From positions 5,245,001 through 5,309,000 of the forward strand of contig NZ_CP108430.1 of NCBI RefSeq assembly GCF_041435335.1: a DNA stretch of 64,000 bases. The letters run 5' to 3'. This DNA is from Streptomyces sp. NBC_01283 (GTDB taxonomy: Bacteria; Actinomycetota; Actinomycetes; Streptomycetales; Streptomycetaceae). How positions within the stretch are numbered: position 1 is the stretch's first letter; every line of letters begins with the position of its first letter. This document shows, in pieces, positions 22,461 through 40,777 of the stretch. Position numbers and translations under genes: made by a program. Below the pieces are notes generated by a model. That model searched no databases, was not told the DNA's origin, and saw only the letters and a program-made list of their open reading frames with translations.

Positions 22461-22549
22461 GGCACGCACGGCGGAACACGCAACACAACGCGCAGCGCAA
22501 CGCAGAGCACAACGCGCAGCGAGCGCACAGCAGGACGCGCACGGGATGC

Positions 22550-22589
22550 GGGGGCACGGGCGGAGGCGCAAGCCGCCGCCCGTGCCCCC
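22550..22589 (+). terminator. Strong hairpin terminator of the carboxypeptidase gene
   Basis: A 14-bp perfect stem (GGGGGCACGGGCGG / CCGCCCGTGCCCCC) is capped by an inner GGC-GCAA-GCC mini-hairpin. It starts 90 bp past the stop. A 14-bp direct repeat (CACAACGCGCAGCG at 22484 and 22508) lies between. Confidence 0.85.
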
Positions 22590-22652
22590 TGTCCGGCCGC
22601 CCCCCTCGGGGGGTGCCGTGCGTGCTAGCGTCACAAGTTCGGGGAGAGCAGT

Positions 22653-24602: not shown

Positions 24603-24612
24603 CCGGGCCGGC

Positions 24613-25521: not shown

Positions 25522-25590
25522 GGGGGCATCCTCCGTCACCGGGCCCCTTGGCCCGGCACGGGGACGATGGGCTCTGCCCCAGGGGCAAGG

Positions 25591-26259
25591 TCAACCGCTG
25601 CCGCTGCCGCTGCCGCTGCCGCTGCCGCCGTCCGTTCCGGGAGGTGCGTCCCGGTGGCCGTAGTACGCCTGGGCCTCCAGCCACCGGCGGTGCCTGCCGC
25701 GCCGTACCCCGACGATGATCGCGATGCCGGAGCCCGCGAGGAGTCCGAGGAGCGGCACGACGACGGTCACGACGATGCCGCCGACGAAGGACGCGAGGTC
25801 GGCGTCGTCGCCGGGCGCGAAGGTGAGGACGCCGCCCGCGTCGTCGCACCGCACGCGGTAGTCCGCGTCCGTGTCCGCCTTCAGTACGAACGCCCGCTCC
25901 CACTCGGCGCTGCCCTTGGTCACGGTGAAGGTGGCGTCGGGGACGGTCACCCGGGGCGCGGACCCGGCAGGACCGGAGACCACCTTGCAGTGCGCACGGG
26001 CGACGAAGGGGCTGCGTACGTAGATGGCGGCGTCGTCATCGGGCCCGAACCGCAGCGTGACGGACCGCCCGCTCGGGAACGCCCTGTCGTCGTCGACGGA
26101 GTCGATCGTCGAGCTCAGCGTCAGCACGAAGCTCACGATGCCGATGCCCACACAGACCGCCGCCATCACACCCGCGATGACGAACCACCGCCGCCGGGGC
26201 CGCAGTTGCCCCGAGTCGATGCGGGGAGGCGGGCCGGGCGGTGGCCCATAGGGATACAT
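25591..26259 (-). CDS. Two-helix membrane protein with GS-repeat tail, unknown function
   Basis: From MYPYGPPPGPPPRIDSGQLR the product has 222 residues: a Pro-rich cytoplasmic start, one helix (FVIAGVMAAVCVGIGIVSFVLTL), an extracytoplasmic beta-rich domain of about 100 residues (SVTLRFGPDDDAAIYVRSPF... YRVRCDDAGGVLTFAPGDDA), a second helix (VVTVVVPLLGLLAGSGIAIIVG) and a short basic cytoplasmic tail. The tail ends in GSGSGSGSGSG, encoded by a GCTGCC hexanucleotide repeat. No known domain is recognised. It is transcribed in the same direction as the upstream penicillin-binding protein, 101 bp away. Confidence 0.75.
   Translation of the reverse strand: MYPYGPPPGPPPRIDSGQLRPRRRWFVIAGVMAAVCVGIGIVSFVLTLSSTIDSVDDDRAFPSGRSVTLRFGPDDDAAIYVRSPFVARAHCKVVSGPAGSAPRVTVPDATFTVTKGSAEWERAFVLKADTDADYRVRCDDAGGVLTFAPGDDADLASFVGGIVVTVVVPLLGLLAGSGIAIIVGVRRGRHRRWLEAQAYYGHRDAPPGTDGGSGSGSGSGSG
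25597..25629 (-). repeat. GCTGCC hexanucleotide microsatellite in coding sequence
   Basis: About five and a half tandem copies of CCGCTG encode a Gly-Ser dipeptide run at the C-terminus of the membrane protein. Slippage would change the tail length by two residues per unit and keep the reading frame. Confidence 0.8.
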
Positions 26260-26360
26260 GCCGGAACGATGGCAGCCGGTGGGGGACGGGGAAAGCCCGC
26301 CCCCCACCGAGTCGGCTGATTACGGTGCTTGACCCGCCATCGCGCGCGACTCACCACGGC

Positions 26361-28439: not shown

Positions 28440-28486
28440 GGTTGGGGAGAGGGGGGTGGCGGGGCGGGGGGTTGGCCGGGGAGGTA

Positions 28487-28531
28487 TTAGGGGGACGTAA
28501 CAGCGGGGAGGGTGTTAGGGGGCGGTAACAG
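28487..28531 (-). promoter_or_regulatory. Pair of 17-bp direct repeats upstream of the PBP gene
   Basis: TTAGGGGGACGTAACAG (28487) and TTAGGGGGCGGTAACAG (28515) are near-identical, 28 bp apart start to start, and 48-92 bp upstream of the PBP start. They may be an activator or repressor site. Confidence 0.45.
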
Positions 28532-28882
28532 TGCGGCCAAGCGGCTGCGGCTGGGGTTGCGGCAGCGGCGGCGGCTGCGGTTGCGGCTTCGGTTGCTGGA
28601 TTGCTGGCGGGGCCCGGCCGCGGCGGCTCCCCTTGGCCACGGCCGGCCCGCCTCAACCATGAGGGACGGCGACGCGGGAGTGTGCCGACCATCATGGGAG
28701 TCATGGAGCGGCGACGGGCCTGAACCAACACCAGCATCCACACCCCGAAGCCACCACTTCCTCTCCCGTGTTCCCGGGGGAGGGCAATCGACACAGGTTG
28801 AATGTGTGAGGTCTGCCTGGGGGCCTTCAGGAGTACGTGGACTTTGATGGGGTCCCGCTGCGACCGGATGAAGGGGATGCGG

Positions 28883-28915
28883 TCGCGAAGTCATCGCGAA
28901 GTCGTCGGGAAGTCT
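28883..28915 (+). promoter_or_regulatory. Three 11-bp phased direct repeats upstream of the hypothetical gene
   Basis: TCGCGAAGTCA, TCGCGAAGTCG and TCGGGAAGTCT follow one another without a gap, 46 bp upstream of GTG 28961. A heptamer repeated at one helical turn is the layout of SARP-type activator sites. Confidence 0.45.
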
Positions 28916-28960
28916 GCATTGCGGGCGCGATCAGCGGGCTGGCCTGCGAGGCTGTGTCGT

Positions 28961-30181
28961 GTGACGTACGCAGTGAGTGTGGACACCCGGATAGCCGGCG
29001 GAACCGCGGAGATGGATGAGCTGCAGCGGTTCGGCGCCGGCGCTCTCCTCGAGGACGGCTTCGAGTCCGTCGAGGAGATCGCGGGCCCTGACGGCATGGA
29101 GATCAAACTCCTCGACACATTTGTGGGCGTGTACCCCGGGGGGGCGCTCCTGAAGGTCTTTGTGGACGCCCCGGCGCTGGAGTTCGCCGAGGAGTCCGTA
29201 CGCGAACTGGTGGAGGAACTGCTAGAACGCACGGAACTGCTCTCGGACTGGACCGTCGAGCGATGCCAGGTGGAGCTTCATCCGGACCTGGCGAAGGAGA
29301 GCCTGGACGCGGCCGACGGCCCGGACGCGCCACCGGATGACGTCGAGTCCCGCCGAGCGCGACTGATGGGGCTGGCCGCGGGAGCGGCATCCACGGACGC
29401 GACCGGGACGGCGGCGGAAACCGACGCGATCCGCGCCAAGATCCGAACCCTGGCCCCGAGGCTGGCGGCTTTCGACGCGGGGATGTTCGGAGTGCTCGAC
29501 GCCGAGGAGGGCGTGGACGGCGAGGAGGGCGAGGACGGTGGGGGCGAGGCCACCGATCAGGACTCGGTCACCTCTACTGTCTCTACCACCTCGACCGAGG
29601 ACGCCGAGCTTGCCGCCGGGGCACTGATCTGGGGCACCGACGTGCTCCTGGACGAGCTGTTCCAGGACGCGCACGCGCTGGACAGGGAGGGAACGAACGT
29701 CGCCGAATGCGACGGCCCCATGTGGCTCCTGGACGAGCTGCCCCCGCGCTACGCCCTGCAGTACGACGCGCGTTTCGCCCGGCGATTCCTGGTGACGGCG
29801 ATCGCGCTGACCACGCGGCTGACGGAGGGAAGTTTCCTGCAGCTGAGCTGCGTGGCCGAAGAGCTGGCGCTCAGGCTGCTGCTGCACGAGGCCGAGGTCA
29901 CGCTCGACACGTTCGGCCTCCTGGACGAGGGCGTCTCTTCGGCACTGGAATGCTTCGCGGCCCTCGTGTACGAGGACATGGACCACGAGTGGCTCTACGA
30001 CGACTCGATGGACGGCATCGACGAGAGCGAGGTGGGCGAGGCCCTCGGCATCACACCCATGGGCATCGCCAACTGGTTCAAGCCCTTCAACAAGGACCGC
30101 TACGTCCACCCGTACGCAGCGGACGAGCCCGAAACCGAAACCGAAACCGACCAGAGCCCGAGCGAGGACTCCAGTCCTTGA
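28961..30181 (+). CDS. Acidic hypothetical protein
   Basis: The likely start is GTG 28961 (VTYAVSVDTRIAGGTAEMDE); ATG 29012 is an alternative, and neither has a strong SD. The 406-residue product is strongly acidic, with an alpha/beta-looking N-terminal domain (ELQRFGAGALLEDGFESVEEI), an Asp/Glu-rich linker (about residues 170-210) and a helical C-terminal half (LPPRYALQYDARFARRFLVTAIALTTRLTEGSF, ECFAALVYEDMDHEWLYDDSMDG). It ends in an ETETETDQS repeat. There is no signal peptide or known motif, so it is probably a cytoplasmic protein of unknown role. Codon bias supports it as real. Three phased 11-bp repeats lie upstream. Confidence 0.75.
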   Translation: MTYAVSVDTRIAGGTAEMDELQRFGAGALLEDGFESVEEIAGPDGMEIKLLDTFVGVYPGGALLKVFVDAPALEFAEESVRELVEELLERTELLSDWTVERCQVELHPDLAKESLDAADGPDAPPDDVESRRARLMGLAAGAASTDATGTAAETDAIRAKIRTLAPRLAAFDAGMFGVLDAEEGVDGEEGEDGGGEATDQDSVTSTVSTTSTEDAELAAGALIWGTDVLLDELFQDAHALDREGTNVAECDGPMWLLDELPPRYALQYDARFARRFLVTAIALTTRLTEGSFLQLSCVAEELALRLLLHEAEVTLDTFGLLDEGVSSALECFAALVYEDMDHEWLYDDSMDGIDESEVGEALGITPMGIANWFKPFNKDRYVHPYAADEPETETETDQSPSEDSSP

Positions 30182-30301
30182 GCACGACCGAGCCCGCTGC
30201 CGGGCTCGGGCCCGCACGTCACAGGAGACGTCCGGTCACCAGCTCTGGACTGTCCAGAACAGTGGATTGCAAGAAACCCCCAAGTCGAACCCCAAGTCGA
30301 G

Positions 30302-30973
30302 TCATTCGTCGTGCGGGGCTTCCAGTTCCAGGAGCCGCTCGGCGATGTCGTCGGCCCACTCCTGCGCCCATCGGCGCAGCCCGGTGATCGCCTGCTCGCT
30401 GAGGCCGTAGGCAGCGAATTCTGTGTCGTCGATCCAGTCCGCTCCGGCGAGGCGTGCCTGGAGATCCGTGAGATCAAAGGTGTCACGGGCGTGGCGGCGC
30501 CCGAGTTCTTCGAGTTCGGGAGGACTCCAGCGGTCTGCGGCTGCCCGGACGTCGATGAGGTCACGGGCGAGACCGCGGTCGGACAGCGCGCGGACCTTGG
30601 TGCCGACGACGTCTTCGAGGGAGAGGACAAGCCCGTACTCGGTCTGAACGGGCGGACGCCAGAGGGCTTCCTTAAGGACATCGACCTCGCACTCCTCGCC
30701 GCTGTGCGGATCGGTGACGATCAGCCGTGCGGAGAGGGGGTCGGTCTCCAATGTCCTCACCCGCCAGCCGCGTTCCTCCAGCCCGGCGCGCACGGTGGCT
30801 GCGATCTTCTCCATCCCTTCGGGATTCTCGGTGGCGACGTCGAGATCCTGGCTGAGGCGGTCGACCAGGCCGTGGGCCTGGACGGCGTAGCCACCGGTGA
30901 GTGCGAGGGGATAGGGGGTGCCTACGGCCAGTACGTCGGCGAGGAGGCGACGGTGCAGTTCGGTCAGGTTCAC
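30302..30973 (-). CDS. AbiEii/AbiGii-type nucleotidyltransferase (toxin component)
   Basis: GTG 30973 overlaps the stop of the upstream gene by four bases (GTGA), which fixes the start and indicates translational coupling. The 223-residue product contains the nucleotidyltransferase signature TGGYAVQAHGL...SQDLDVATE (GG plus the DxD metal-binding pair) and a later acidic residue in EECEVDVLKE, as expected of AbiEii/MenT-type enzymes. Such proteins are toxins of type IV or related toxin-antitoxin and phage-defence pairs that modify RNA targets. The upstream 115-residue gene would encode the antitoxin or regulator. It lies just outside the integrated element. Confidence 0.88.
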   Translation of the reverse strand: MNLTELHRRLLADVLAVGTPYPLALTGGYAVQAHGLVDRLSQDLDVATENPEGMEKIAATVRAGLEERGWRVRTLETDPLSARLIVTDPHSGEECEVDVLKEALWRPPVQTEYGLVLSLEDVVGTKVRALSDRGLARDLIDVRAAADRWSPPELEELGRRHARDTFDLTDLQARLAGADWIDDTEFAAYGLSEQAITGLRRWAQEWADDIAERLLELEAPHDE

Positions 30974-31317
30974 GCAACAGCCCGGGTGCGCGGGGCCAGC
31001 TCGGGGAAGGCGGTTTCCCAGACGTCCCGGAGGTCCCGGCTGATCAGTGTGCGCAGGGTTGGCCACAGGCTGACGAGCAGGTCCTGGTCGAGGTACCGGA
31101 TGAGGTCGTCGTGGAGGCCTTCGGCCAGGACGATGCGATAGCAGCTCATGCGCAGGCGCGGCTGGTCGAGGTCGAACTCGGTCAGCCCGGACCAGGCCAG
31201 GTGTAGCGGCAGGCTCACGGTCCCGTGGGCGGGCCCGGCAAGTGCCGCGAGCTCGGCAGGCAGCCGCCGGGCAAACTTGGCTCGGCGGAGCTCGGAGAGG
31301 CTGGGCGGTGAGGCCAT
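30970..31317 (-). CDS. Putative antitoxin/regulator paired with the AbiEii-like gene
   Basis: MASPPSLSELRRAKFARRLP gives 115 residues; the longer frame upstream to 31458 has no SD-supported start. The sequence is helical (LRRAKFARRLPAELAALAG, RMSCYRIVLAEGLHDDLIRYLDQDLLVSLWPTLRTLISRDLRDVWETAFPEL). No clear HTH is visible. Genes of this size directly upstream of and overlapping an AbiEii-family gene are a common streptomycete arrangement, and they are assumed to neutralise or regulate it. The assignment rests on position and the four-base overlap. Confidence 0.7.
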   Translation of the reverse strand: MASPPSLSELRRAKFARRLPAELAALAGPAHGTVSLPLHLAWSGLTEFDLDQPRLRMSCYRIVLAEGLHDDLIRYLDQDLLVSLWPTLRTLISRDLRDVWETAFPELAPRTRAVA

Positions 31318-31636
31318 GCCCCGATTATCGCCTGAGGGGGAGGCGGGGATGAGAAATGCTCCGACATCCGAGCGAGAAGCTTTCTCGGCGATCAGCCCTG
31401 GGGACCTGCGCACGTTCCATGCTCTGGTCGAGCCTGGCGCGTATGGAGCGGCTCGCACAGGGAAGGGAGGGGCCGCTGGTTGTTGATCTCAGCGATGATC
31501 GGGAGCCCGTGCTGGGACCGACGCCAGGGACCGCAGCGTCAACATCCGCTTCAGACGTTTGTTTGGGCTGCCTGCACGGTGGCCGTCATGGCCTTGCCTG
31601 GACGCCCAATTTCTCAGCCATCTGCAGCCGCTGATG
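31318..31636. other. Gene-free gap holding one copy of an 18-bp direct repeat
   Basis: No ORF here shows codon bias. GGTTGTTGATCTCAGCGA (31478-31495) matches GGTTGCTGATCTCAGCGA (32416-32433) at 17 of 18 positions. The repeat flanks the next membrane-protein gene and the left boundary of the tRNA-linked element. Confidence 0.55.
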
Positions 31637-32128
31637 TCAACTGGTAGCTGGTCCTGGCCCCGGCGATGAGGTCCCGTCGGTGGACGCCTTCTTGCTGTCC
31701 CCGCCCGTCACTTCGTGGAAGAAGCCCGGTACACCAAGGATGATCGCGGGGACAGCAAGTGCCCACCACCACAGGTAAGCGCCGCCGTGGAGGGCGGCCC
31801 ACGTGCCTAGGCCGATGCCGCCGAGACTGAGAACGACCCCCAAGCCCACCCCAACGGCATCCCGCTTGAAGGAGTCTTCGCGCTGACGCATCTCGCTGTA
31901 CCTCTGCGCTGTCGCGTCCACTTGGGACGTGAGGACCGACTTGGCGGTTGTGCCCTCCGCGACAGACTCCACTGCTGCGATTTCTGCAGTCAGGCGAACC
32001 ATGATCTTGTCTGAGCTTGATCGGCGACTTGCCCGAGCGGCGAAAAGGCCCGTGAGCAGGGCAATTACCACGGGGGAGAATGCGGTTACTGCCTGCGTGG
32101 CCGAGGCGACCTGCAACGTCATTCCCAT
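31637..32128 (-). CDS. Small membrane protein of unknown function
   Basis: A 163-residue protein (start 32128, with a second ATG at 32122) with three hydrophobic segments: AVTAFSPVVIALLTGLFAA near the N-terminus, then VGVGLGVVLSLGGIGLGTWAAL and LWWWALAVPAIILGVPGFF. A cytoplasmic, charged helical stretch separates the first and second (RLTAEIAAVESVAEGTTAKSVLTSQVDATAQRYSEMRQREDSFKRD), which could form a coiled coil. No family is recognised. It lies between the 18-bp direct repeats and next to the left attachment site. Confidence 0.65.
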   Translation of the reverse strand: MGMTLQVASATQAVTAFSPVVIALLTGLFAARASRRSSSDKIMVRLTAEIAAVESVAEGTTAKSVLTSQVDATAQRYSEMRQREDSFKRDAVGVGLGVVLSLGGIGLGTWAALHGGAYLWWWALAVPAIILGVPGFFHEVTGGDSKKASTDGTSSPGPGPATS

Positions 32129-32325
32129 CGTCGAGGGCGATAGCGTCCACGGTACCGAGCGTGAGCCTCGCTCCGGCAGGGGCTGGGAAAGGGATTGATC
32201 GTGGCCTCGCCGTAAGGGTCTGCTTGGCGAGGATGTTCAGGGCGTTCCCCGTAGAGGTCGGGGGTGGGCACGTCTCTTTTTGTGCGCTCAGTGATCACGC
32301 ACGCTGATGTCGACTGCGGATGTCA

Positions 32326-32357
32326 AAGGCCCCGGACCAAGATCGGCCCGGGGCCTT
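32326..32357 (-). terminator. Hairpin beyond the displaced tRNA 3' end
   Basis: AAGGCCCCGG / CCGGGGCCTT form a perfect 10-bp stem. The hairpin starts 6 bp past the CCA that follows the left att copy, so it is probably the original terminator of the tRNA-Arg gene, separated from it by the element. Confidence 0.75.
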
Positions 32358-32365
32358 CTGACTGG

Positions 32366-32383
32366 TGCCCCCGGCAGGATTCG
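32366..32383 (-). other. Left attachment site (tRNA-Arg 3'-end copy)
   Basis: TGCCCCCGGCAGGATTCG is identical to the last 18 bases of the tRNA-Arg gene at 38231-38248. On the minus strand this copy is followed by CCA and then a hairpin, as at a normal tRNA end, so it marks the chromosome-element junction. Confidence 0.85.
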
Positions 32384-32523
32384 GACTGGATCTGTACGGG
32401 ATGGGGATGGTCACCGGTTGCTGATCTCAGCGACTGTTGGGGTCTCGCATAGGGGCGACTGAACTACGTCCCGTGAGAGCGGCGGCGCCTAGCGCGAGGG
32501 GCGCGCGAGTAAGCAGACGTGAA

Positions 32524-32564
32524 CCAGGGCGCCGTATCTGGGTTCATGGCATACGACGCCCTGG
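32524..32564 (-). terminator. Hairpin terminator downstream of the DUF6907 gene
   Basis: CCAGGGCGCCGTAT (32524-32537) and ATACGACGCCCTGG (32551-32564) form a 14-bp stem with one mismatch, starting 26 bp past the stop at 32590. Confidence 0.75.
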
Positions 32565-32589
32565 CCTCCATGGCGGCTGACTCAATGGC

Positions 32590-33612
32590 TCACGCCGCCG
32601 CCTGCCCCCTCAGCCATGAGGTGCCAGGCGGCGCGCCCGCCTGTCGGACCTCGGCACCGTCGGTGGCGGTCAGTTCCTCTTGTGTCTCGTGGATGTCTGC
32701 CAGCAGATGCTTCACCCGGTCTTCCAGATATGGGCCGGCGGCTCCCTTGGGGACGGTCACCCAGACCGGCCCGCCTTGCCGCGTATCGCCGACGGCGTGA
32801 CCGAAGAAGCCCTTCACGTTGTTCCGGTGCTCCACGATCCGCACGCCGCAGTAGCCGACCAGTTCTTGCAGAGATGCGACGGCTTCCGGGCGGGCGTACT
32901 CGCGTCCCTGCGCGATGAACTCGTTGAGGCAGGACCGCAGTCGGTCGGCTTCATCGAAGGTCATCTCCACGTGGTGCCGCTTCTGGGTGGTGCCGATGGT
33001 GAGGTCGATCAGAGGACGCGGATCATGCGGCATGTGCTCCATGACGAGATCGAGCGTCTCTGCCTCTTGCCCGTACTTACTGTGGACCACCGGATGCAGC
33101 GCCAATTCCATGCTGGTCTCCTCCGTTGCGTGGAACTGATCGGCCAGAAGCCCGGTCACGCTGTGCTCCTCCTGGTCCCGGTACTGGCACCAGGGCGGGC
33201 AGGGGGCGACGAGTTCAAGTGGATGAGTGGCGGCCGGGTAGAGGTCGACGGCTTCGGCGGCACCGCCGAGGATGACAGCCTCGAACCGGTGCCGCAGCCC
33301 TCGGAGCCGCAGGGCGAATTTCTCCACGCCGGCGATGAGCTCTCCCAGGGCAGCGGAGTCCAGTTCAGCCGTACCGTCGACGGCCGAGAGCCATAGACGG
33401 GGCTGCTCGCCGCGCGCTTCCTCATCGTGTCCGAGGCCGATCTGCACGGACAGCAAGGGTGGTTCGAGGCTCGGACTCATTTCTGCAGGGGCGGTCAGAC
33501 GCACCGGGATGCTGACGTGGCTCCCGACTGCCTCCGCGTGTGCATCGCGGGCGCACCAGGCGGGGCACTCCTGCTCGGCTGGGGGGAAGGGCAGAACTGT
33601 AGTGGTGGACAT
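32590..33612 (-). CDS. DUF6907 domain protein
   Basis: ATG 33612 with SD AGGAGA gives 340 residues starting MSTTTVLPFPPAEQECPAWC. The DUF6907-type pattern appears twice: CPAWCARDAHAEAVGSH...SIPVRLTA with RPWLWLSAVDG-like beta strands (PRLWLSAVDGTAELD) and CPPWCQYRDQEEHSVTGLLADQFHATEE, each starting with a CPxWC motif. The C-terminal part (ASLQELVGYCGVRIVEHRNN...VKHLLADIHETQEELTAT) looks like a further regulatory extension. Proteins of this family are common on actinomycete integrative elements and in genomes, with no established biochemical role. Here it lies inside the tRNA-linked element, next to the left att copy. Confidence 0.8.
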   Translation of the reverse strand: MSTTTVLPFPPAEQECPAWCARDAHAEAVGSHVSIPVRLTAPAEMSPSLEPPLLSVQIGLGHDEEARGEQPRLWLSAVDGTAELDSAALGELIAGVEKFALRLRGLRHRFEAVILGGAAEAVDLYPAATHPLELVAPCPPWCQYRDQEEHSVTGLLADQFHATEETSMELALHPVVHSKYGQEAETLDLVMEHMPHDPRPLIDLTIGTTQKRHHVEMTFDEADRLRSCLNEFIAQGREYARPEAVASLQELVGYCGVRIVEHRNNVKGFFGHAVGDTRQGGPVWVTVPKGAAGPYLEDRVKHLLADIHETQEELTATDGAEVRQAGAPPGTSWLRGQAAA

Positions 33613-33721
33613 GATGTCTCCTTTGTTGGGAGTGACTTCGTGTCCATCAGTTTTGATCCCGCTCATGGGCATCACGCCCTAAGCTCCCAAACTGGGTATA
33701 CGCCCCGTTCGTCCAGGTCAG

Positions 33722-33737
33722 GCTGTGCCCCCGGCAG
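33722..33737 (-). other. Internal, degenerate attachment-site copy
   Basis: GCTGTGCCCCCGGCAG equals 38227-38242 exactly, including the GCTG that flanks the tRNA end on the element side, and is followed by TCGAA after a three-base gap. It looks like the remnant of a junction between two related insertions. Confidence 0.6.
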
Positions 33738-33907
33738 TCGAATGCAGCTCGACGCGCCCCTTGCCAGGGGGCATCTGTTGCCCGGCTCCCGGTCGCGGTT
33801 CGGTGACGGCCCAGGAGACTGCTGTGGTTGCTGTACGTCTCTGTTGTTCCGTAATGCCCAACAGCCATCAACACGCTTTCCAACTGTGGTGGTGGCCCCG
33901 ATGACTC

Positions 33908-33994
33908 TGAACGGGGCCGTTCACCTGCGTTCATGGACGACCGGCCGTGAGAGCTGCTACCGGCTTCCGTCCTGCCTGAACGGCCGTGAACGGC
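33908..33994. repeat. Cluster of TGAACGG heptamers
   Basis: TGAACGG-GG-CCGTTCA (33908-33923) is a 7-bp inverted repeat. Two further TGAACGG copies occur in direct orientation at 33977 and 33987. Four copies within 90 bp suggest a binding site for an element-encoded regulator or replication protein. Confidence 0.5.
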
Positions 33995-34187
33995 GCTGAA
34001 TGAGACGGAGACTGAGACGGAAGCGTGCCCCGCCTTCAGGACGGCTCCGACCCCCAACACGGCCGCCGAAGTGGAGGGGACTTGAGCTGTCCCCCGACAG
34101 GTAGACCCTCCGCTACTCAGCATTGATAAGCGCGAGAGGCCAGGAAACCTCAGGCACGGATCAGCCCTGCACACTACGCTCACCAGC

Positions 34188-35153
34188 ATGAGGCGCCAGC
34201 AGCTTGAGTTAATCACCATTAGGGCAGTCGAGCACGTACTAAGCGGCCGAACCAGCGAGGACTCCCTCATTGAGTTTAAGGCAACTTGGCCCGAGGTGGC
34301 CAAAGTTAGACAATTGGCCGGGCATGCAAATGGCGCTCGCGGCGAAGAGATCATCTGGATCATCGGAGTGGACGAAAAGGCGCACACCCTCACCAACCCG
34401 GAACGGCAAGACTCGGCGCAATGGTGGGCGCAAATGAGCAAAAGGTTTGACGGACTAGTGGCGCCCGAGATGACGGATCTGGTAGTCCCCATTGGAGATT
34501 CAGGTGCCGTCACCTCCCTTCTATTTCAAACCGATCGCTCGCCATATGTAATTACAGTTCCATCCGGAGGGGCAGTAGAACGAGAGGTGCCAATTCGCGA
34601 TGGCACTCGGACACGCAGCGCCACCAGGCACGAGCTGCTACGCCTCCTGGTGCCTGCAGCAACCCTGCCGGACCTCTCCGTGCTTGACGCGCGACTGACC
34701 ATCTCTGAGGTATTGGCCAAGGAGAAAAAGAGGTGGACTGCTCACGCATCGGCAATGCTGTACATCGAGCAGGGTATGAATTCTTCATGCTTCTTCCCCG
34801 CCCACGGAATGCATGGATCACTGGAAACCCATAACGGCACAACCATGTACCGCGCATTCACTAAGGGTATTCAAAGTGACCTGCGGCTTTCATCCGGAGA
34901 CTCGGGCGTTCAATGGCGCGCCGACGGCGCTATCGCAAACGGTCCGACGGCATTTGATGTACTGATCTGGACTTCGAGTGATGGAGAAATTCCGGAGAAC
35001 GTAGCGAAAGCCGACGGTTATACACTGAACCTCTCATTTGAAGTCGCCGGGTCAGACCGAACCATTCCTCTGCCAATTCTTCTCACCGCGCCAGAGGTCT
35101 CCGAAAGACACGGTTTCAAGAAGCTGGAAGCTAGCCGCGCGACTGATTCGTAG
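34188..35153 (+). CDS. AlbA_2/Schlafen-like domain protein, candidate defence gene
   Basis: The 321-residue product starts MRRQQLELITIRAVEHVLSG and shows the AlbA_2 (Schlafen-core) pattern in its first 65 residues: SLIEFKATWP, then RQLAGHANGARGEEIIWIIGVDEKAH, with the E-x-K after a strand, an (A/G)HAN helix and the GVDE strand turn. The rest (FVTVPSGGAVE-like strands, MLYIEQGMNSSCFFPAHGMHGSLE) has no recognised domain. Family members include nucleases and transcriptional regulators, and several act in phage defence. Codon use is clearly less GC-rich at third positions than in neighbouring genes, indicating transfer. No SD is obvious. It is the likeliest accessory function of the element. Confidence 0.75.
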   Translation: MRRQQLELITIRAVEHVLSGRTSEDSLIEFKATWPEVAKVRQLAGHANGARGEEIIWIIGVDEKAHTLTNPERQDSAQWWAQMSKRFDGLVAPEMTDLVVPIGDSGAVTSLLFQTDRSPYVITVPSGGAVEREVPIRDGTRTRSATRHELLRLLVPAATLPDLSVLDARLTISEVLAKEKKRWTAHASAMLYIEQGMNSSCFFPAHGMHGSLETHNGTTMYRAFTKGIQSDLRLSSGDSGVQWRADGAIANGPTAFDVLIWTSSDGEIPENVAKADGYTLNLSFEVAGSDRTIPLPILLTAPEVSERHGFKKLEASRATDS

Positions 35154-35163
35154 GTCGGCGGAG

Positions 35164-35309
35164 CGGCTTTGGGCTGGAGCTGCTTTGGGGCGAGTGATCA
35201 TGGCCCCTTAAGCTTCCGGCGAGTCGGACAGTCTGTGGACCTGCCCGTTAAAGCACGACGTTGGGGCCATGATCTTAGAGGCTCGCCCCAACGTGGCTGC
35301 GTAAAGCCG
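35164..35309. repeat. Nested inverted repeats, MITE-like or IS remnant
   Basis: TTGGGGCGAG-N1-GATCATGGCCCC-like sequence (35185-35207) is inverted at 35263-35291, where a 7-bp insertion separates the two blocks. An outer CGGCTTT/AAAGCCG pair (35164, 35303) and an inner ACGTTGGGG/CCCCAACGT hairpin (35258-35294) complete the structure. There is no ORF inside. Confidence 0.6.
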
Positions 35310-35419
35310 TGGAGCCGACCGCCCCAGCCGCGATGTACCGATTCTCTGAGTTCGGTCGGCGGCCAGCTCTTGTCGCGCGGCCGGGTGGACCGGGCCGGAG
35401 CGGGGCGGAGACAGGAGCG

Positions 35420-35441
35420 GCGGCCCGGGGAGCCGGGCCGC
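35420..35441. repeat. GC-rich hairpin
   Basis: GCGGCCCGG-GGAG-CCGGGCCGC is a perfect 9-bp stem with a 4-base loop. It may be a terminator for the AlbA_2 transcript. Confidence 0.55.
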
Positions 35442-35608
35442 GCGCGGGGAGCGGAGCGAGCCGCCTTGATGGGTGTAGGGAAAGTTCAATCTCTCAGATC
35501 GGCGGTGATCGCCGTGCCGGCCTTTCACTGGTAGGCGCAAGCAGCGAATGGTTCTCCCTGTCGGCCTTCCAAGCCCCGTTAGAGCGGTGCCCCCGGGTGC
35601 CGGGCTTC

Positions 35609-35643
35609 GCGCAGGGCAGGCCCGTGGGGGTCCTGCCCTGCGC
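35609..35643 (-). terminator. Hairpin terminator of the DUF1152 gene
   Basis: GCGCAGGGCAGG / CCTGCCCTGCGC form a perfect 12-bp stem with an 11-base loop, 10 bp past the DUF1152 stop. Confidence 0.85.
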
Positions 35644-35653
35644 ATCCTGCAAC

Positions 35654-36745
35654 TCACCTGTGGTGAAGCTTCCACACAGATGCCGGGAGGTGGCCGGTGC
35701 GCGTGGTGTTGAGCTGGGTGAGGTGCGGGAGGGCTTCGGTGGTGAGTCCCAGGGCCTCTGCGAGGCGGCGGATTGTTGTGTATGTGGTTCCTCGTGTGGC
35801 GGCTTCCCGCTCGAAGGCCTTGATCTGGGTCAGGAGGTCGTGCGGGACGGCAGGGACTCGCTGGTGCTGGGTCAGTCCCCGTGCCTTCGCTCGTTCGTAG
35901 TTGATCTCTGAGGTGCCGCAGACCGTGCGGCAGTGTTCCTCTGCTTCGTCGAGCGTGGTCGTTGCCGTGATGGCTTGGGCCAGGCGGTTGGCGGCGAACG
36001 CCGTCGCCCCGTCGACCTCGTGGACGGTGGGGCCCTCGGCGGTGAGTGGGACCGGGAGTCCGGCGTCGCGGATCTCGCACAAGCCTCGGGCGCCCAGCGC
36101 GGTGGCGGTGAGCAGGGCCGTTGCTTCGGAGGGGTGCCAGGTGAGGATCGGGATGATGGCTTGGGCGTGCTCCGGCGTGAAGGTCGTGAGCAGGGGGCCG
36201 AGGCGCGGGCGGAGGACGTCTGCGGGGAGCTCGCCGTCGAGGCCGGGGCCCGCCACCAAGAGGCGTACCGGCGCCTCGGTGTGGGCGCAGGCGGCCAGGG
36301 TCAGGGCATCGGCCAGCGGGCTGCGCAAGGTGGGTTCGTCGCCGTGGGCCAGGATGTCGCCGCCCACGTCCAGGAGGTCGATCGTCTCCGGGGCGAAGTG
36401 GGTGATCAATTCCGACAGCTGGCGGGTGATGCCTGTTGCCCCGGCGTATGGGTCGATCAGGGCGAAGGTGTGGGGGAGTTCGGCCGCGAGGCGGGGGAGG
36501 GTTGCCGCGTGCGGCGGCTTCAGCGTTGCGGTGCCGGGGACTGCCCAGACGTGGGGGGTGAGTTGGCGCAGGCCGGTGAAGTCGGCGGGGGAGCGCGGGC
36601 CCGGGACCGGGTCGATGATCAGGCGGTCCCAGGAGTACGTCAGGATCAGCGCCGGCTCGTCATCGTCGCCGTACAGGGCGGCGTGCAGCATCACCGCCGC
36701 CACCGCGTCGCCGCCGCCTCCGGCCGCCACAATGAGCCGTTTCAC
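35654..36745 (-). CDS. DUF1152 domain protein
   Basis: From GTG 36745 the 363-residue product begins VKRLIVAAGGGGDAVAAVML, matching DUF1152, in which an AAGGGGDA glycine loop opens a nucleotide-binding-like fold. Further conserved-looking parts are SWDRLIIDPVPGPR, FALIDPYAGATGITRQL and DLLDVGGDILAHGDEPTLRSPLADAL. The longer frame (to 36781) lacks an SD. The DUF1152 family is of unknown function; it resembles ATP-binding carbohydrate or amino-acid kinases only in the glycine loop. The gene is divergent from gntR, and the putative GntR operators lie between, so GntR probably controls it too. Confidence 0.85.
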   Translation of the reverse strand: MKRLIVAAGGGGDAVAAVMLHAALYGDDDEPALILTYSWDRLIIDPVPGPRSPADFTGLRQLTPHVWAVPGTATLKPPHAATLPRLAAELPHTFALIDPYAGATGITRQLSELITHFAPETIDLLDVGGDILAHGDEPTLRSPLADALTLAACAHTEAPVRLLVAGPGLDGELPADVLRPRLGPLLTTFTPEHAQAIIPILTWHPSEATALLTATALGARGLCEIRDAGLPVPLTAEGPTVHEVDGATAFAANRLAQAITATTTLDEAEEHCRTVCGTSEINYERAKARGLTQHQRVPAVPHDLLTQIKAFEREAATRGTTYTTIRRLAEALGLTTEALPHLTQLNTTRTGHLPASVWKLHHR

Positions 36746-36785
36746 GAGAACAGGGTAGAGGTGCGTCCTTTCCGTGCGCACCTAT

Positions 36786-36808
36786 AGTGGCCACTGGTAT
36801 TAGCCAGT
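36786..36808. promoter_or_regulatory. Putative GntR operator in the DUF1152/gntR promoter
   Basis: AGTGGCCACT (36786-36795) overlaps ACTGGTATTAGCCAGT (36793-36808), a 5-bp-arm palindrome. The half-sites match those downstream of gntR (37607-37646). The site sits 19 bp before the gntR start. Confidence 0.65.
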
Positions 36809-36826
36809 CGGTGAAGGGAATGTCGC

Positions 36827-37567
36827 GTGCCCGAGATCGCTGAGGCCTTGCCCAAGTACCTGCAGATCGCCCAGTACCTGCGCGATCAGATCCTGCGTGG
36901 GGATCTGCGGCCAGGCGAGGAAGTGCCGTCCGAGCGGCAGCTGGCCGCCGACTGGAATGTCTCCCGGCCGACCAGTGCCCGCGCCCTGGAGGCGCTGCGG
37001 CATCAGGGTCTTGTCGAGAAGCGGCAGGGATCGGGGACGTACGTACGGGATCAGCAAGTGCACCGGCGGGCTCGCGAGCGCTATGGGCGGGCGCGGCAGA
37101 CGGGGCGGATCTACGGGCCTGGGGAGTACGCGGTCATCGCGTCGGCCGGGTATGCCGAGGCGCCCGGTCACGTGGCCGAGGCGCTCGAACTGGGCAAGGA
37201 ACGCGGGGCTGTTCAGCGGCGGCGGGTGACCAACTCGGCAGACGGGCCCGTCGAGACGTCTACCTCCTGGTTCCCGGCCGAGCTGGGCCGCAGGGCGCCC
37301 CGGCTCCTGGAGCCCGAGCGGATCCGGGAGGGAACGGTCTTGTACGTCGAGGAAACCACCGGTCGGCGAGGCAGCTACGGAGAGGATCGTGTCTGCGCCC
37401 GGCTGGCCACCCGCGAGGAGGGCGACGAGCTTGGGCTCGAACCGCCCGCCGCGGTACTGGTGGTTCACCATGTCGTCTACGACCTGCAGGACCGTCCACT
37501 GGAGTTCGCGGAGGCCGTGTATCCGCCGGGGCGCTGGGCGTTCGAGCAGGGTTACCCGTTGGGGTGA
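36827..37567 (+). CDS. GntR/HutC-family transcriptional regulator with UTRA domain
   Basis: GTG 36827 with SD GAAGGGA gives 246 residues. The winged HTH is canonical (YLQIAQYLRDQILRGDLRPGEEVPSERQLAADWNVSRPTSARALEALRHQGLVEKRQGSGTYV), and the UTRA effector domain follows (residues about 95-240, ending LEFAEAVYPPGRWAFEQ). HutC-subfamily members bind palindromes of the type A(G/C)TGGT-N4-ACCA(C/G)T. Related palindromes lie directly upstream of this gene and again between it and the RsbW-like gene, so it probably autoregulates and controls its neighbours. The effector ligand is unknown. Such regulators commonly repress transfer genes in actinomycete integrative elements, which are absent here. Confidence 0.93.
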   Translation: MPEIAEALPKYLQIAQYLRDQILRGDLRPGEEVPSERQLAADWNVSRPTSARALEALRHQGLVEKRQGSGTYVRDQQVHRRARERYGRARQTGRIYGPGEYAVIASAGYAEAPGHVAEALELGKERGAVQRRRVTNSADGPVETSTSWFPAELGRRAPRLLEPERIREGTVLYVEETTGRRGSYGEDRVCARLATREEGDELGLEPPAAVLVVHHVVYDLQDRPLEFAEAVYPPGRWAFEQGYPLG

Positions 37568-37606
37568 GTGGTGGGCGGCGATTCCCCGGAAGCTCTTGCC
37601 GCCCGA

Positions 37607-37646
37607 AGTGGCCAATGCCACTATCCGGTGAGTGGCCTTAGCCACT
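37607..37646 (+). promoter_or_regulatory. Tandem GntR operators upstream of the RsbW-like gene
   Basis: AGTGGCcaatGCCACT (37607-37622) and AGTGGCcttaGCCACT (37631-37646) are perfect 6-bp-arm palindromes, 24 bp apart, in the 98-bp gap before ATG 37666. They match the sites upstream of gntR. Confidence 0.75.
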
Positions 37647-37665
37647 TATCGGAAGGGGAAGCGCA

Positions 37666-38109
37666 ATGACGCGCACCAACGGCGACTCTGGCGACGACGC
37701 CCTACTCCAACCACTCGGCGGGATGGTCCTCCATCCCCTCCCGGAGTCGGTCGGACGCGCTCGCCGCTGGTTCCGGAAGTTCACCGAGCCGCATCAGCTC
37801 AGCTGCTCCATCGATGACTGCGAGCTGATGGTCTCGGAGTTGGTCACCAACGCCATCCTCTACGGGGAGGCCGACGAGCCCTGGCGGGTACGCGTGCGCT
37901 GGTACCGCTTGGGCGAGACGCTGCGCGTGGACGTGCATAACCCCGGCTGTCCCGCCCATGTCCGCCTCCGCTCGCCCCGGGCCACGGAAGCCCACGGGCG
38001 CGGCCTGCTCCTGGTCGATGCGCTGGCCGATGAGTGGTGGTGCGGGCCGAGTCGGCATGGCGGGACGGCTGTTGTGTTCCTCATGCACCGCGCGTTCAAG
38101 CCTGCCTAA
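37666..38109 (+). CDS. RsbW-like ATP-binding protein (anti-sigma-factor kinase fold)
   Basis: ATG 37666 with SD GGAAGGGGA gives 147 residues with the HATPase_c_2 fold: LPESVGRARRWFRKFTEPHQL, DDCELMVSELVTNAILYGE (N-box with E, L-V-T-N-A), LRVDVHNPGCPAHVRL (G1-like box), AHGRGLLLVDALADEWWC (G2 box) and GGTAVVFLMH. These single-domain ATPases resemble anti-sigma kinases such as RsbW and are abundant in Streptomyces. No anti-anti-sigma or sigma gene adjoins. Two GntR-type operators directly upstream show it is in the GntR regulon. It is the last gene of the element before the tRNA. Confidence 0.92.
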   Translation: MTRTNGDSGDDALLQPLGGMVLHPLPESVGRARRWFRKFTEPHQLSCSIDDCELMVSELVTNAILYGEADEPWRVRVRWYRLGETLRVDVHNPGCPAHVRLRSPRATEAHGRGLLLVDALADEWWCGPSRHGGTAVVFLMHRAFKPA

Positions 38110-38182
38110 GAGCCAGGGCGCGGGGCAAGGCGGACTCCTAGGGGCCCTTGCGGCACGGCGTGGCACGGCCCCGATCATGCAA

Positions 38183-38223
38183 AAGGGCCAGCTCAAGAGG
38201 ATCAAGCCTCTGAACTGGCCCTT
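38183..38223 (-). terminator. Hairpin downstream of the present tRNA-Arg end
   Basis: AAGGGCCAG / CTGGCCCTT form a 9-bp stem with an inner AGAGG/CCTCT pairing. It lies eight bases past the tRNA end, on the element side, and replaces the original terminator displaced to 32326. Confidence 0.75.
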
Positions 38224-38230
38224 AGCGCTG

Positions 38231-38303
38231 TGCCCCCGGCAGGATTCGAACCTGCGACACCCGCTTTAGGAGAGCGGTGCTCTATCCCCTGAGCTACGAA
38301 GGC
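38231..38303 (-). tRNA. tRNA-Arg (anticodon CCU)
   Basis: On the minus strand the gene begins GCCTTCGTAGCTCAGGGGA, and its acceptor strands GCCTTCG and CGGGGGC pair, with G-U pairs. The anticodon arm CCGCT-CTCCTAA-AGCGG gives anticodon CCT. The T arm is CGCAGGTTCGAATCCTGCC-like, with the standard GGTTCGAATCC. Length is 73 nt to the discriminator A. No CCA is encoded here, whereas the copy at 32366 is followed by CCA. The 3' part is the integration target of the adjacent element, which therefore supplies the current 3' end of the gene. Confidence 0.95.
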
Positions 38304-38502
38304 GGGCCTTGCGTGGTGCGTGGTGGGGGCTCTGGGTGAGAGCTCCCGTGCGCGCCGTGCGAGGTCCTGGGCTGCTGCTATGAGCGGCCCACCACAGACT
38401 AGCGGATGGGGCGGACGCGGTGGGATGGGGTTGCGTCCGGGTGCGAGGGGGTGAGCGTGGGTGGCTGGAGTTCGTCAGGGGTGCTGTGGGGGAGGTCTCA
38501 CC

Positions 38503-38586
38503 CGGAAGCCGGAAGCCGGAAGCCGGAAGCGGGAAGCGGGAAGCGGGAAGCGGGAAGCGGGAAGCGGGAAGCCGGAAGCCGGAAGC
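38503..38586. repeat. 7-bp tandem repeat (minisatellite), 12 copies
   Basis: Four copies of CGGAAGC, six of GGGAAGC and two more of CGGAAGC follow without gaps. The array is a likely variable-number locus between two transcription units. The last units also pair with downstream GGCTTCCGG. Confidence 0.9.
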
Positions 38587-38608
38587 CGGGTCCCCGGGTG
38601 GCTTCCGG
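38579..38608 (-). terminator. Hairpin terminator of the pectinase gene
   Basis: CCGGAAGCC / GGCTTCCGG form a perfect 9-bp stem, 19 bp past the pectinase stop; its distal arm is part of the 7-bp minisatellite. Confidence 0.65.
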
Positions 38609-38626
38609 CCTGCCCTCCGCCCCCCC

Positions 38627-40777
38627 TCAGGGAGCCGGGGTCCAGTTGCCCAGCCAGTCGGCGGTCTCCTGGCCCGCCGCCTGCGCGTCCGTCAGCTGCG
38701 GGCGGTCACCGCTCGCGGGGCCCGAGCCCGCGCCCGTGTTCTTGTACTCGGCGAAACGGTCGTCCTTCCAGGAGAAGCCGCCCATGTCCGTCCACGGAGT
38801 CGTCCTGATCGCCGCGCCGAGGGTGGAGTTGCGTACCGTCGTCTGGGGGTCGAGGCTCGCGTCGCCGCCCGCGTGCCAGTTGCGGCCCAGGTAGAAGCTG
38901 CGCGCGGACACGTCGCCGTTGACCGTGCTGTCGGTGATCAGGAAGCCCTTGCGGTCGGGCGCGGTGCTCGGCGCGGTGACGTAGCCCTGCGAGCTGCCGT
39001 CCCAGCGCTTCTTGAGGGTGATCACCGAGCGGTCCACCACGGCCGTCGCCCGGCCGAAGATGAAGTCGGTGTTGCCCACGACGTACGAGTTCCTGACGTA
39101 CGCACGGCCGAGCTTGTCCTTGGCCGCCGTGTCCAGGAGGAGGGTGTCCTGGTCCCCCTCGACGATCACGCCGTCGAGGAACACCTTGTCGGCCGCCGTG
39201 CGCAGCGCCACCGCCTGGTGTCCGGCGAGATTCTGGTTGGCCTTCTCGTCGAAGTCGTTGGAGATCGTCAGGTTGCGGGCCTGGAAGTCGTCCGCCTCCG
39301 CGGCGACGGTCGCGCTGCCCGAGGTGCCGTAGGCGCCGGAACCGTCCGGCTTGGGCGTACCGGCCGCGTTGGCGTACACGATGACCGTGTCCTTGCGGCT
39401 GCCGCCCGTGCCCTGGAGGGTGACATGCGGCTTGTTCGACGGGATCTTGACCGTCTCGCGGTACGTCCCCGGCTTGATGGCGACGGTGACCCGTGACGGG
39501 TTGTTCGCGGGTACGGCGGCGACCGCCGCCTGAACCGTCCTGTACTGGCCGCTGCCGTCCTTCGCCACGGTGAGGGTGGCGGCAGCCGAAGTCCGCGAAG
39601 CCCCTGAAGTCGCCGAAGTACCCGAAGTCGCCGTGGACGCGCGGACGTTCGCGCGCGGGCCCGCCCCCGCCTTCACCTTCGCCGGGACGTCCGCCGCCTT
39701 GTCGAGCGTGTAGCCGTAGAAGCTCTTCGGGTCGAACGCCGTGCCGCCGCTCTCGTTGCGCCCGCTCGTCCCGACGAAGACGTTGCCGCGCTGCACGACC
39801 GAGGCCGAACTGTCCTTCGTGACCGGGTTGTTGAAGCCCTCGAAGTAGCTGTTCTCCAGGACCATCCTCGTGTTGCCGCGCGAGTAGTTGCCGTAGGACG
39901 ACTTGATGTCCGTGCCGGGGGCGTCCTGGAGGTAGTTGTTGTAGAGGTGCGCGTGGGCCACGTTGTCGGTGGACGGGTTGCGCTGCTCGGTCTCGCGGAA
40001 CCAGTTGTGGTGGATCGTGATGTCGGCCGTGGTGTTCTCGGTCCAGCCGATGCCGAAGGTCTTGTTGTTGTCGCTCAGCTTGTTCCAGGACACCGTCAGG
40101 TAGGTCGTGTCCTTGCGGCTGTCGATCAGGCCGTCGGCCATGTGCCGCAGGTCGTTGTGGTCGATCCAGACGTGGTGCGCGCCGTCCATCTGTATGGCGT
40201 CGAAGTCGTGCTCCTTGTCGTTCCACGTGCCCGCGTACGAGTCCCGGATCGTGAGGTTCCGGATGATCACGTTGTGTACGCCCTGGCCCAGGAAGAAGCC
40301 GCCCCCGACGATCTGGCCCGCGGTGCCGGACCCCACGATCGTCTTGTCCGACGCGACCTTGATCTCCTTGCCCTTGGGGTTCATCGTGATCGTCGCGGCG
40401 ACCACGATGACGTACGGATCGGAGGCCGTCGCGTACTTCTCCAGGTCCGCGAGCGTCTTGACGGTGACCGTCTTCCCGTCGCGTCCGCCGTAAGTCCCGT
40501 TCTGGCCGAGGGCGTTGACGGAGGCGAAGCCGTCGGCGACATCGGCGGCATCAGCGACATCGGCGGGGTTGGCGGCGCCGGCTGCGTCAGCTCCCGCCGA
40601 GGCCGCGGGAGCCGCCGTGGCCCCGAAAACCGTGCCGCCGCCGTACGCAAGGCCCGCCGCTGCCGCCATGGCCACCGGGATGCCGACCGCCAGGTTCAGC
40701 CGGCGCCTGCGATGCCGCGCGGTCTTGTGTCCGCGCTGCTCGTGCGGCTCACGCTGCTCGTGCTCGATCGCTCTCAT
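38627..40777 (-). CDS. Bifunctional secreted pectate lyase (PL1)-pectin methylesterase (CE8)
   Basis: A 716-residue fusion, start MRAIEHEQREPHEQRG with a GAGG SD. A long signal region (HRRRRLNLAVGIPVAMAAAAGLAYGGG) directs export. Residues about 85-385 are a polysaccharide lyase family 1 domain: NLTIRDSYAGTW, DFDAIQMDGAHHVWIDHNDL, TVSWNKL and VAHAHLYNNYLQD. A Thr/Ser linker (about 390-415) leads to a carbohydrate esterase family 8 domain: PSRVTVAIKPGTYRE, QAVALRTAADKVFLDGVIVEGDQDTLL, GNTDFIFGRA and YLGRNW. The first cleaves demethylated polygalacturonate by beta-elimination; the second removes methyl esters. Fused, the protein can de-esterify and cleave pectin. Both sets of motifs look intact. 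Confidence 0.93.
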   Translation of the reverse strand: MRAIEHEQREPHEQRGHKTARHRRRRLNLAVGIPVAMAAAAGLAYGGGTVFGATAAPAASAGADAAGAANPADVADAADVADGFASVNALGQNGTYGGRDGKTVTVKTLADLEKYATASDPYVIVVAATITMNPKGKEIKVASDKTIVGSGTAGQIVGGGFFLGQGVHNVIIRNLTIRDSYAGTWNDKEHDFDAIQMDGAHHVWIDHNDLRHMADGLIDSRKDTTYLTVSWNKLSDNNKTFGIGWTENTTADITIHHNWFRETEQRNPSTDNVAHAHLYNNYLQDAPGTDIKSSYGNYSRGNTRMVLENSYFEGFNNPVTKDSSASVVQRGNVFVGTSGRNESGGTAFDPKSFYGYTLDKAADVPAKVKAGAGPRANVRASTATSGTSATSGASRTSAAATLTVAKDGSGQYRTVQAAVAAVPANNPSRVTVAIKPGTYRETVKIPSNKPHVTLQGTGGSRKDTVIVYANAAGTPKPDGSGAYGTSGSATVAAEADDFQARNLTISNDFDEKANQNLAGHQAVALRTAADKVFLDGVIVEGDQDTLLLDTAAKDKLGRAYVRNSYVVGNTDFIFGRATAVVDRSVITLKKRWDGSSQGYVTAPSTAPDRKGFLITDSTVNGDVSARSFYLGRNWHAGGDASLDPQTTVRNSTLGAAIRTTPWTDMGGFSWKDDRFAEYKNTGAGSGPASGDRPQLTDAQAAGQETADWLGNWTPAP

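Follow-up and report, generated by a model that had tools for sequence, protein, structure and literature searches.

The stretch analysed here (the window) comprises 64,000 nucleotides of the chromosome of Streptomyces sp. NBC_01283 (G000:C1:5245001-5309000; genome size 9.59 Mb). It contains a tRNA-Arg(CCU) gene, written tRNA-Arg(CCT) in gene spelling and representing one target gene, next to which about 9.4 kb of DNA appears to have been inserted. Comparison with a genome in which the site is unoccupied, and with intact elements of relatives, suggests this DNA to consist of tandem remnants derived from actinomycete integrative and conjugative elements (AICEs), in a state like that of a cis-mobilizable element (CIME). 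We assign this reading a probability of about 0.78. The features on which it rests are:

38230–38303, − strand: tRNA-Arg(CCT), the target gene (ARAGORN; Rfam tRNA, 65 bits)
38119–38229, − strand: element-side arm with a hairpin, AICE-arm-like sequence and the probable last ~10 codons of int (90% identity over 200 bp, including the tRNA, to locus L043)
33722–33744, − strand: third tRNA-end copy, in a decayed state and probably the far end of the tRNA-side remnant (16-mer; profile E 0.0094)
32307–32386, − strand: left tRNA-end copy (core 32366–32383) with a type-C arm, apparent junction of two remnants (profile E 2.5e-18; alignment)
28767–28806, no strand: left junction, with the conserved sequence located behind the tRNA hairpin in genome G123; no tRNA-end copy here

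The unoccupied site and the extent of the insertion

The 18-mer TGCCCCCGGCAGGATTCG was found at 32366–32383 and 38231–38248, both on the + strand, the right copy being the 3′ end of tRNA-Arg(CCT). Its chance expectation is 9e-6 per 64 kb (both strands, first-order Markov). An earlier note on this DNA had described this direct repeat, and its letters and orientation were confirmed, as was the layout around it: on the tRNA strand the left copy reads ...GGGGGCA CCA GTCAG and is followed by a 10-bp hairpin, while the present tRNA reads ...GGGGGCA CAGCGC and is followed by another hairpin. A profile of 86 attachment sites from relatives recognized both the tRNA copy (E 6.9e-18) and the left copy (E 1.8e-8). 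No tRNA-end copies other than these two and the third copy listed above were present in 20000–38300 with up to five edits, and an Rfam scan of 28000–40000 returned the tRNA as its sole match above threshold. The same 18-mer has three further copies in the genome, namely tRNA-Arg(CCG) and two tandem copies behind it. The tRNA-Arg(CCG) site (G000:C1:3219218-3260123, L006–L008) holds two tandem elements with the same 18-bp core and with integrases at 3220533 and 3241187. Just past the window's tRNA lies a run of 7-bp repeats (CGGAAGC/GGGAAGC, 38503–38590). Matches in named records were to Streptomyces, except for one plasmid listed under Kutzneria.

A search of 392 genomes with window positions 24600–32390 gave a sole close match, in G123. 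The corresponding stretch (L145) followed the window colinearly over 54411–38626 and 28502–24448, with blocks of more than 500 bp being 85.7–95.7% identical. Its site consists of one tRNA-Arg(CCT), a hairpin and 86 bp with no counterpart in the window, followed by the sequence found at window position 28806; the hairpin resembles that of the window up to about 38176 and diverges beyond. Since G123 joins the tRNA and hairpin to 28806, the comparison places the inserted DNA at about 28807–38175, i.e. 9.4 kb. The earlier note had instead delimited an insertion of 32366–38230 and predicted that an empty site would join 38249 to 32365 with one tRNA end; the single tRNA end was found, but that joint was not. 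Extents based on repeats can thus mislead, the repeats giving 5.9 kb and the unoccupied site 9.4 kb. G015 (L059) was also considered as an empty-site model, its core gene lying 3 kb from the tRNA, but other genes intervene and G123 is far closer.

The same note had taken the left copy, with its CCA, for the intact original tRNA end. This does not fit G123, whose native end, GGGGGCACAGCGG, lacks CCA, nor the flank of the left copy, which is an element-type arm (type C). Further, CCA follows tRNA-Arg(CCT) in only 8 of the 35 genes examined, and therefore carries no information as to which tRNA end is original. The broader proposals, that a tRNA-targeting element had inserted DNA at this gene and left an element-derived flank beside it, and that more than one insertion had taken place, were borne out: the arms at 38230 and 32366 are of different types, and the insertion reaches 28806. 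Two or more elements at one site, with internal attachment sites, are what tandem accretion entails. The third-position GC content was 0.60–0.86 in nine inserted open reading frames (ORFs) versus 0.90–0.95 in five flanking genes.

Probable remnants of integrative elements beside the tRNA gene

The arm next to the tRNA matched L043 as far as 38119, a point 22 bp into the int gene of L043, and the frame at its end reads ..RGKADS-stop where L043 has ..RGDVDS-stop; it is suggestive of an arm whose end still includes about ten final codons of an integrase gene. In L043, L044 and L045 (genomes G069, G109 and G052) the tRNA is followed by the same type of arm, directly by int, and then by xis, rep, spd and tra, with Pfam confirming integrase, RepSA, FtsK and DUF2637 in L044. 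These are three of the seven fetched 20-kb loci that have this arm at the tRNA; the other four (L046–L048, L056) showed no complete integrase beside it. In the window, an integrase profile matched no ORF of at least 60 aa, and tblastn with AICE proteins gave a match at E 1e-5 for GntR alone, with none for RepSA or Tra, in keeping with the earlier remark that no integrase or transfer gene is visible. The window thus has neither an integrase gene nor a RepSA or FtsK-type tra match at that threshold, as an intact AICE would; it has flanking tRNA-end repeats together with genes that otherwise lie inside AICEs, as expected of an AICE remnant. The genes and elements between the third copy and the tRNA are:

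37666–38109, + strand: HATPase_c_2 (anti-sigma-type ATPase) protein, 147 aa (Pfam PF13581, 1.9e-13)
36827–37567, + strand: GntR/UTRA regulator, 246 aa (Pfam; 33–35% identity to the KorSA-like GntR of intact AICEs)
35654–36781, − strand: DUF1152 protein, 375 aa (Pfam PF06626, 3.2e-77)
35152–35472, + strand: structured non-coding AICE element, candidate single-strand origin or RNA (22-copy alignment, covariation)
34188–35153, + strand: ORF, 321 aa, no family match, third-position GC 0.60
33869–34021, + strand: conserved 152-bp block (sharp ends, in 140 of 392 genomes)

The DUF1152, GntR and ATPase genes form a module that recurs in relatives. Twenty loci were taken from the top of the match list by their DUF1152 gene (which is therefore present in 20/20); the ATPase also aligned in 17 of them, and a full-length AICE-type integrase was found in 10, with a fragment in one more. 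The integrase lay near a tRNA gene in six of these 10 (Gly CCC in three, Ser GGA in two, Arg CCG in one), and in four of the six the tRNA end was repeated 15.5–17.8 kb away. The gene order in L102 and L106 was DUF1152, GntR, ATPase, a second GntR, FtsK-type tra, DUF2637, rep, int and tRNA; L102 also has xis, placed between rep and int, and there Pfam confirmed HTH_17, RepSA, FtsK and GntR/UTRA. From this order, the window would hold the far half of such an element. Because the module is the distal part of intact AICEs elsewhere and the tRNA flank matches the int-side arm found in intact AICEs that occupy this tRNA gene, the segment beside the tRNA is, judged by its gene content and borders, the remnant of an AICE. 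The end of the ATPase gene at 38109 is also the end of an 83% match to G351. Searches with PADLOC and NCBIfam gave nothing specific beyond AbiEii and general GntR and anti-sigma matches. The third-position GC content of the ORF at 34188–35153 is far under the genome's usual level.

The far end of this remnant is likely to be the third tRNA-end copy. The 16-mer GCTGTGCCCCCGGCAG lies at 33722–33737. Its reverse complement, CTGCCGGGGGCACAGC, has just two occurrences in the whole 9.59-Mb genome (window positions 33722 and 38227), against 0.0003 expected by chance per 64 kb and 0.04 per genome. The copy lacks three T-loop bases, reading TTCGA-CTGCC instead of TTCGAATCCTGCC. Two results speak against it: with up to three mismatches the 16-mer was not above chance (5 found, 3.65 expected), and the 86-site profile gave it only E 0.0094. 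The probable assignment as a far end follows from the 152-bp block, which lies at the far end in some AICEs: a tRNA-Ser end copy abuts it in 7 of 24 fetched loci, and L106, one of these, has an AICE carrying the same module whose far end is formed by that copy. In the window, the block sits 124 bp inside the third copy; the block is present a second time in the same genome at G000:C1:6497653. The third copy that the earlier note had reported is therefore real, in that its 16-mer occurs just twice in the genome, but it is decayed and is better taken for the far end of the tRNA-side remnant than for the mark of a second related insertion, as proposed there; the second insertion is marked by the left copy.

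The sequence at 35152–35472 was 85–95% identical, among the matches listed, to copies in many genomes. It was found in three plasmid records with AICE-type genes, and four places in its own genome, the window included, match at least 170 bp of it (the others at G000:C1:3254619, 6503427 and 3724524). Alignment of 22 copies revealed a 59-pair hairpin with 97.9% of cells paired; 10 pairs were changed on both sides versus 3.7 in shuffles, and none of 500 shuffles reached any of the measures. On both strands the folding energy was lower than in any of 100 shuffles (z −3.7 and −4.5). The element lay on the strand of the nearest repSA gene in 12 of 12 comparisons (11 loci, one of them a dimer; the elements are related). 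Of 22 repSA loci, 11 had the hairpin, six only the tail and five neither, one of these five adjoining a locus with the hairpin. No match was found in Rfam, or in phage records by blastn. The fixed orientation and long hairpin fit a single-strand origin, and the element, until now unannotated, is a candidate for such an origin of rolling-circle replication, or for an RNA. Single-strand origins are known for Streptomyces plasmids (PMC4170104). If the element is the single-strand origin of RepSA elements, AICEs and what remains of them could be located by its hairpin as a sequence marker.

To the left of the third copy lie five further ORFs:

32590–33675, − strand: DUF6907 protein, up to 361 aa (Pfam PF21848, 1.2e-21)
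31637–32128, − strand: ORF, 163 aa, no family match
30970–31458, − strand: ORF, 162 aa, directly upstream of AbiEii as its partner gene, no family match; its position alone makes it a candidate antitoxin
30302–31066, − strand: AbiEii-type nucleotidyltransferase, 254 aa (Pfam PF08843, 1.2e-13; PADLOC AbiEii, 7.4e-6)
28802–30181, + strand: ORF, 459 aa, no family match, similar genes elsewhere in relatives

The type-C arm of the left copy lies between a tRNA and an integrase gene in L041 and L042, and not in L040 (i.e. in two of three fetched genomes), and no tRNA-end copy was found within five edits at the left junction (28806). Given this arm and the missing copy at the junction, the left copy marks a second, probably older remnant carrying the AbiEii-type gene, whose far end has been lost; its greater age would follow from the general pattern by which newcomers integrate directly beside the tRNA. 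Genes like the AbiEii/partner pair and the ORF at 28802–30181 occupy other chromosomal places in relatives. For the DUF6907 gene, one match of 72–73% was among those listed, in G097, and the 17 kb fetched around it contained no tRNA and no tRNA end with up to three mismatches.

Proposed history, rival explanations and tRNA-end cassettes

The source of the segment at about 33722–38230 would be an AICE of the RepSA/TraB type whose tyrosine integrase recombined its attP with the tRNA end, so that the tRNA was rebuilt and the element's own arm and hairpin came to lie beside it. The ATPase gene and the G351 match end at 38109, and the arm match ends at 38119; hence we infer that one deletion brought the end of the ATPase gene up against the final codons of int (about 38119). 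Lost with it would be korSA, tra, spd, rep, xis and almost the whole of int, whereas the non-coding element and the DUF1152-GntR-ATPase module would have survived. The boundary to the second remnant, with AbiEii and other genes, would lie at the left copy and its type-C arm, the far attachment site of that remnant having been lost. The island would be immobile alone, and an incoming element of the same specificity might carry it in cis by the attachment-site copies that remain. The order of events, the single deletion and the residual mobility are our reconstruction. Several observations weigh against it. No deletion intermediate was found, and the genomes compared include no strain of the same species. 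The int tail (about ten codons, seen at the DNA level) gave no credible tblastn match, and a similar hairpin is present at the unoccupied site of G123, so that the hairpin alone is no proof of an element arm. No tRNA end abuts the 152-bp block in 17 of the 24 loci. Finally, the module occurs without int, rep or tra nearby in L090, L091 and L092 and with an int fragment only in L096; it could have arrived already stripped.

This last point leads to cassettes in other genomes. Sixty genomes were searched with a 30-mer of the tRNA end, allowing three mismatches. Matches, a few of which may be due to chance, were found in 59, and in 34 of these at least two copies lay on the same strand within 60 kb; the count of arrays is a low estimate, the window's own left copy being too diverged to be counted. 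The arrays (L115, L117, L120, L123, L127, L128, L130, L054 and others) yielded 57 segments, 18 of them shorter than 5 kb and 10 of 5–10 kb. When the 18 were examined with a profile in all frames, 15 had no integrase, two a fragment and one a full gene (tblastn matches to one ORF of L052 that lie within the tRNA end and arm were excluded). Five genomes had a cassette with a Uma2 gene (Pfam), homology stopping at the tRNA end in L115, L117 and L123. Another cassette, with a PIN-domain gene (Pfam 23.5 bits, just below the cut-off of 23.6) and a partner, was 88.7% identical between G100 and G128 over 1223 bp including both tRNA ends. A 2577-bp piece with a tRNA end on one side and a shortened tRNA end on the other was 97.3% identical in G069 and G007. 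Core identity, from one region of 1.6–4.7 kb per pair, was 82.0% for G069–G007 and 86.1% for G100–G128, and the excess of the Uma2 cassette over core identity ranged from several points to none. As the other cassettes exceed the core less or not at all, the G069/G007 piece alone looks like a clear case of lateral spread. Two families of cassette upstream arms accounted for 18 and 9 of 51 copies. In L122 (G065), two arms of identical type (CCAGTTCAGAAGGGCCCC...) bound a 2.4-kb segment with an integrase fragment.

These data bear on the possibility that the window's pieces, instead of decaying where they now lie, came as ready-made tRNA-end cassettes without integrases, which integrases supplied in trans recombined into tRNA-Arg(CCU). 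The 15 integrase-free segments out of 18 and the G069/G007 piece, 2.6 kb long and 97.3% identical over a sampled core of 82.0%, would favour it, as would the resident AICEs at tRNA-Arg(CCG), which share the 18-bp core and are possible helpers for the window's sites, and L096, where the same module lies 350 bp from a tRNA end with no intact int. We nevertheless judge this origin improbable: the int-side arm and probable int tail beside the tRNA fit decay in place, the cassette upstream-arm families were not found at the window's left copy (E 0.03), and the other cassettes show a less clear excess over core identity, or none. If the two 18-mers bounded a single 5.9-kb element and the left copy were the original tRNA end, the exact 18-bp direct repeat and the hairpins on both sides would be accounted for, but this model is very hard to reconcile with G123, where the native end has no CCA and the tRNA is joined to 28806, with the element-type arm on the left, or with the 3.5 kb of additional inserted DNA beyond the left copy. 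Phage tyrosine integrases use the same kind of site, and a prophage or other non-AICE origin would be compatible with that; it has, if anything, a slighter chance still, given that 30200–38230 had no megablast match in 50,697 phage records and that both the module and the non-coding element show linkage to RepSA/FtsK elements.

A wider proposal, tentative and in our view unlikely, although less so than any of these alternatives, is that the tRNA-Arg(CCU) end acts as the head of an integron-like cassette array. Short, mostly integrase-free cassettes (Uma2-type, PIN-type toxin with partner, single unknown genes), each ending in a tRNA-end copy and hairpin arm, would be put in place and piled up by AICE integrases, working in trans or on composites, and would spread by them from one species to another. 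The two or three pieces in the window would belong to such an array, and the AICEs driving the process would share a structured single-strand origin, which would be the element at 35152–35472. Were this true, the tRNA end and borrowed integrases would provide a route to toxin-antitoxin and defence genes in streptomycetes. In the literature covered, mainly titles and the beginnings of abstracts, with subscription papers outside its scope, no account of Streptomyces tRNA-end cassette arrays or of a conserved AICE hairpin was recognized.

Relation to known systems

If tandem AICE remnants are the correct reading, the scar shows an AICE shrinking to its cargo with the tRNA left intact, and the relatives suggest that such leftovers can move between species as small blocks. 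The island is a new case of a process already described, AICE accretion and decay, since stacking or accretion of this kind is reported in PMC9513070, PMC3218068 and PMC5704250. The first of these (Choufa et al. 2022) describes a Streptomyces tRNA-Arg at which AICEs and defective AICEs are stacked, among them an old remnant without traB; integrase or replicase genes have been lost there, cargo lies between the repeats, and cis-mobilization is held possible. It shares with the window several AICEs or defective AICEs bounded by direct repeats at a tRNA-Arg, gene loss and cargo; it differs in strains and site (about 8 Mb), and the window's remnant is without int, rep and tra altogether and has lost a far end. 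PMC3218068 reports two tandem AICEs in one tRNA-Arg of S. avermitilis. The module, arms and non-coding element of the window belong with the pSAM2/RepSA-type AICEs treated there, i.e. elements with RepSA, FtsK-type Tra and a tyrosine integrase at tRNA genes, although the window has no int, xis, rep or tra.

The definitions of CIME and of CIME accretion are given in PMC5704250. As in a CIME, integration and transfer genes have been lost, in tandem with other elements. A CIME also keeps both of its attachment sites; here the copies at 32366 and 38231 retain the 18-bp core, the third copy has decayed, and the left remnant has lost its far site, there being no copy at the true left end, 28806. The TR1/TR2 islands of plant-associated Streptomyces (PMC8369830) differ in site (aviX1), size and gene content; they resemble it in having a CIME beside an integrative and conjugative element (ICE), with an internal attachment site.

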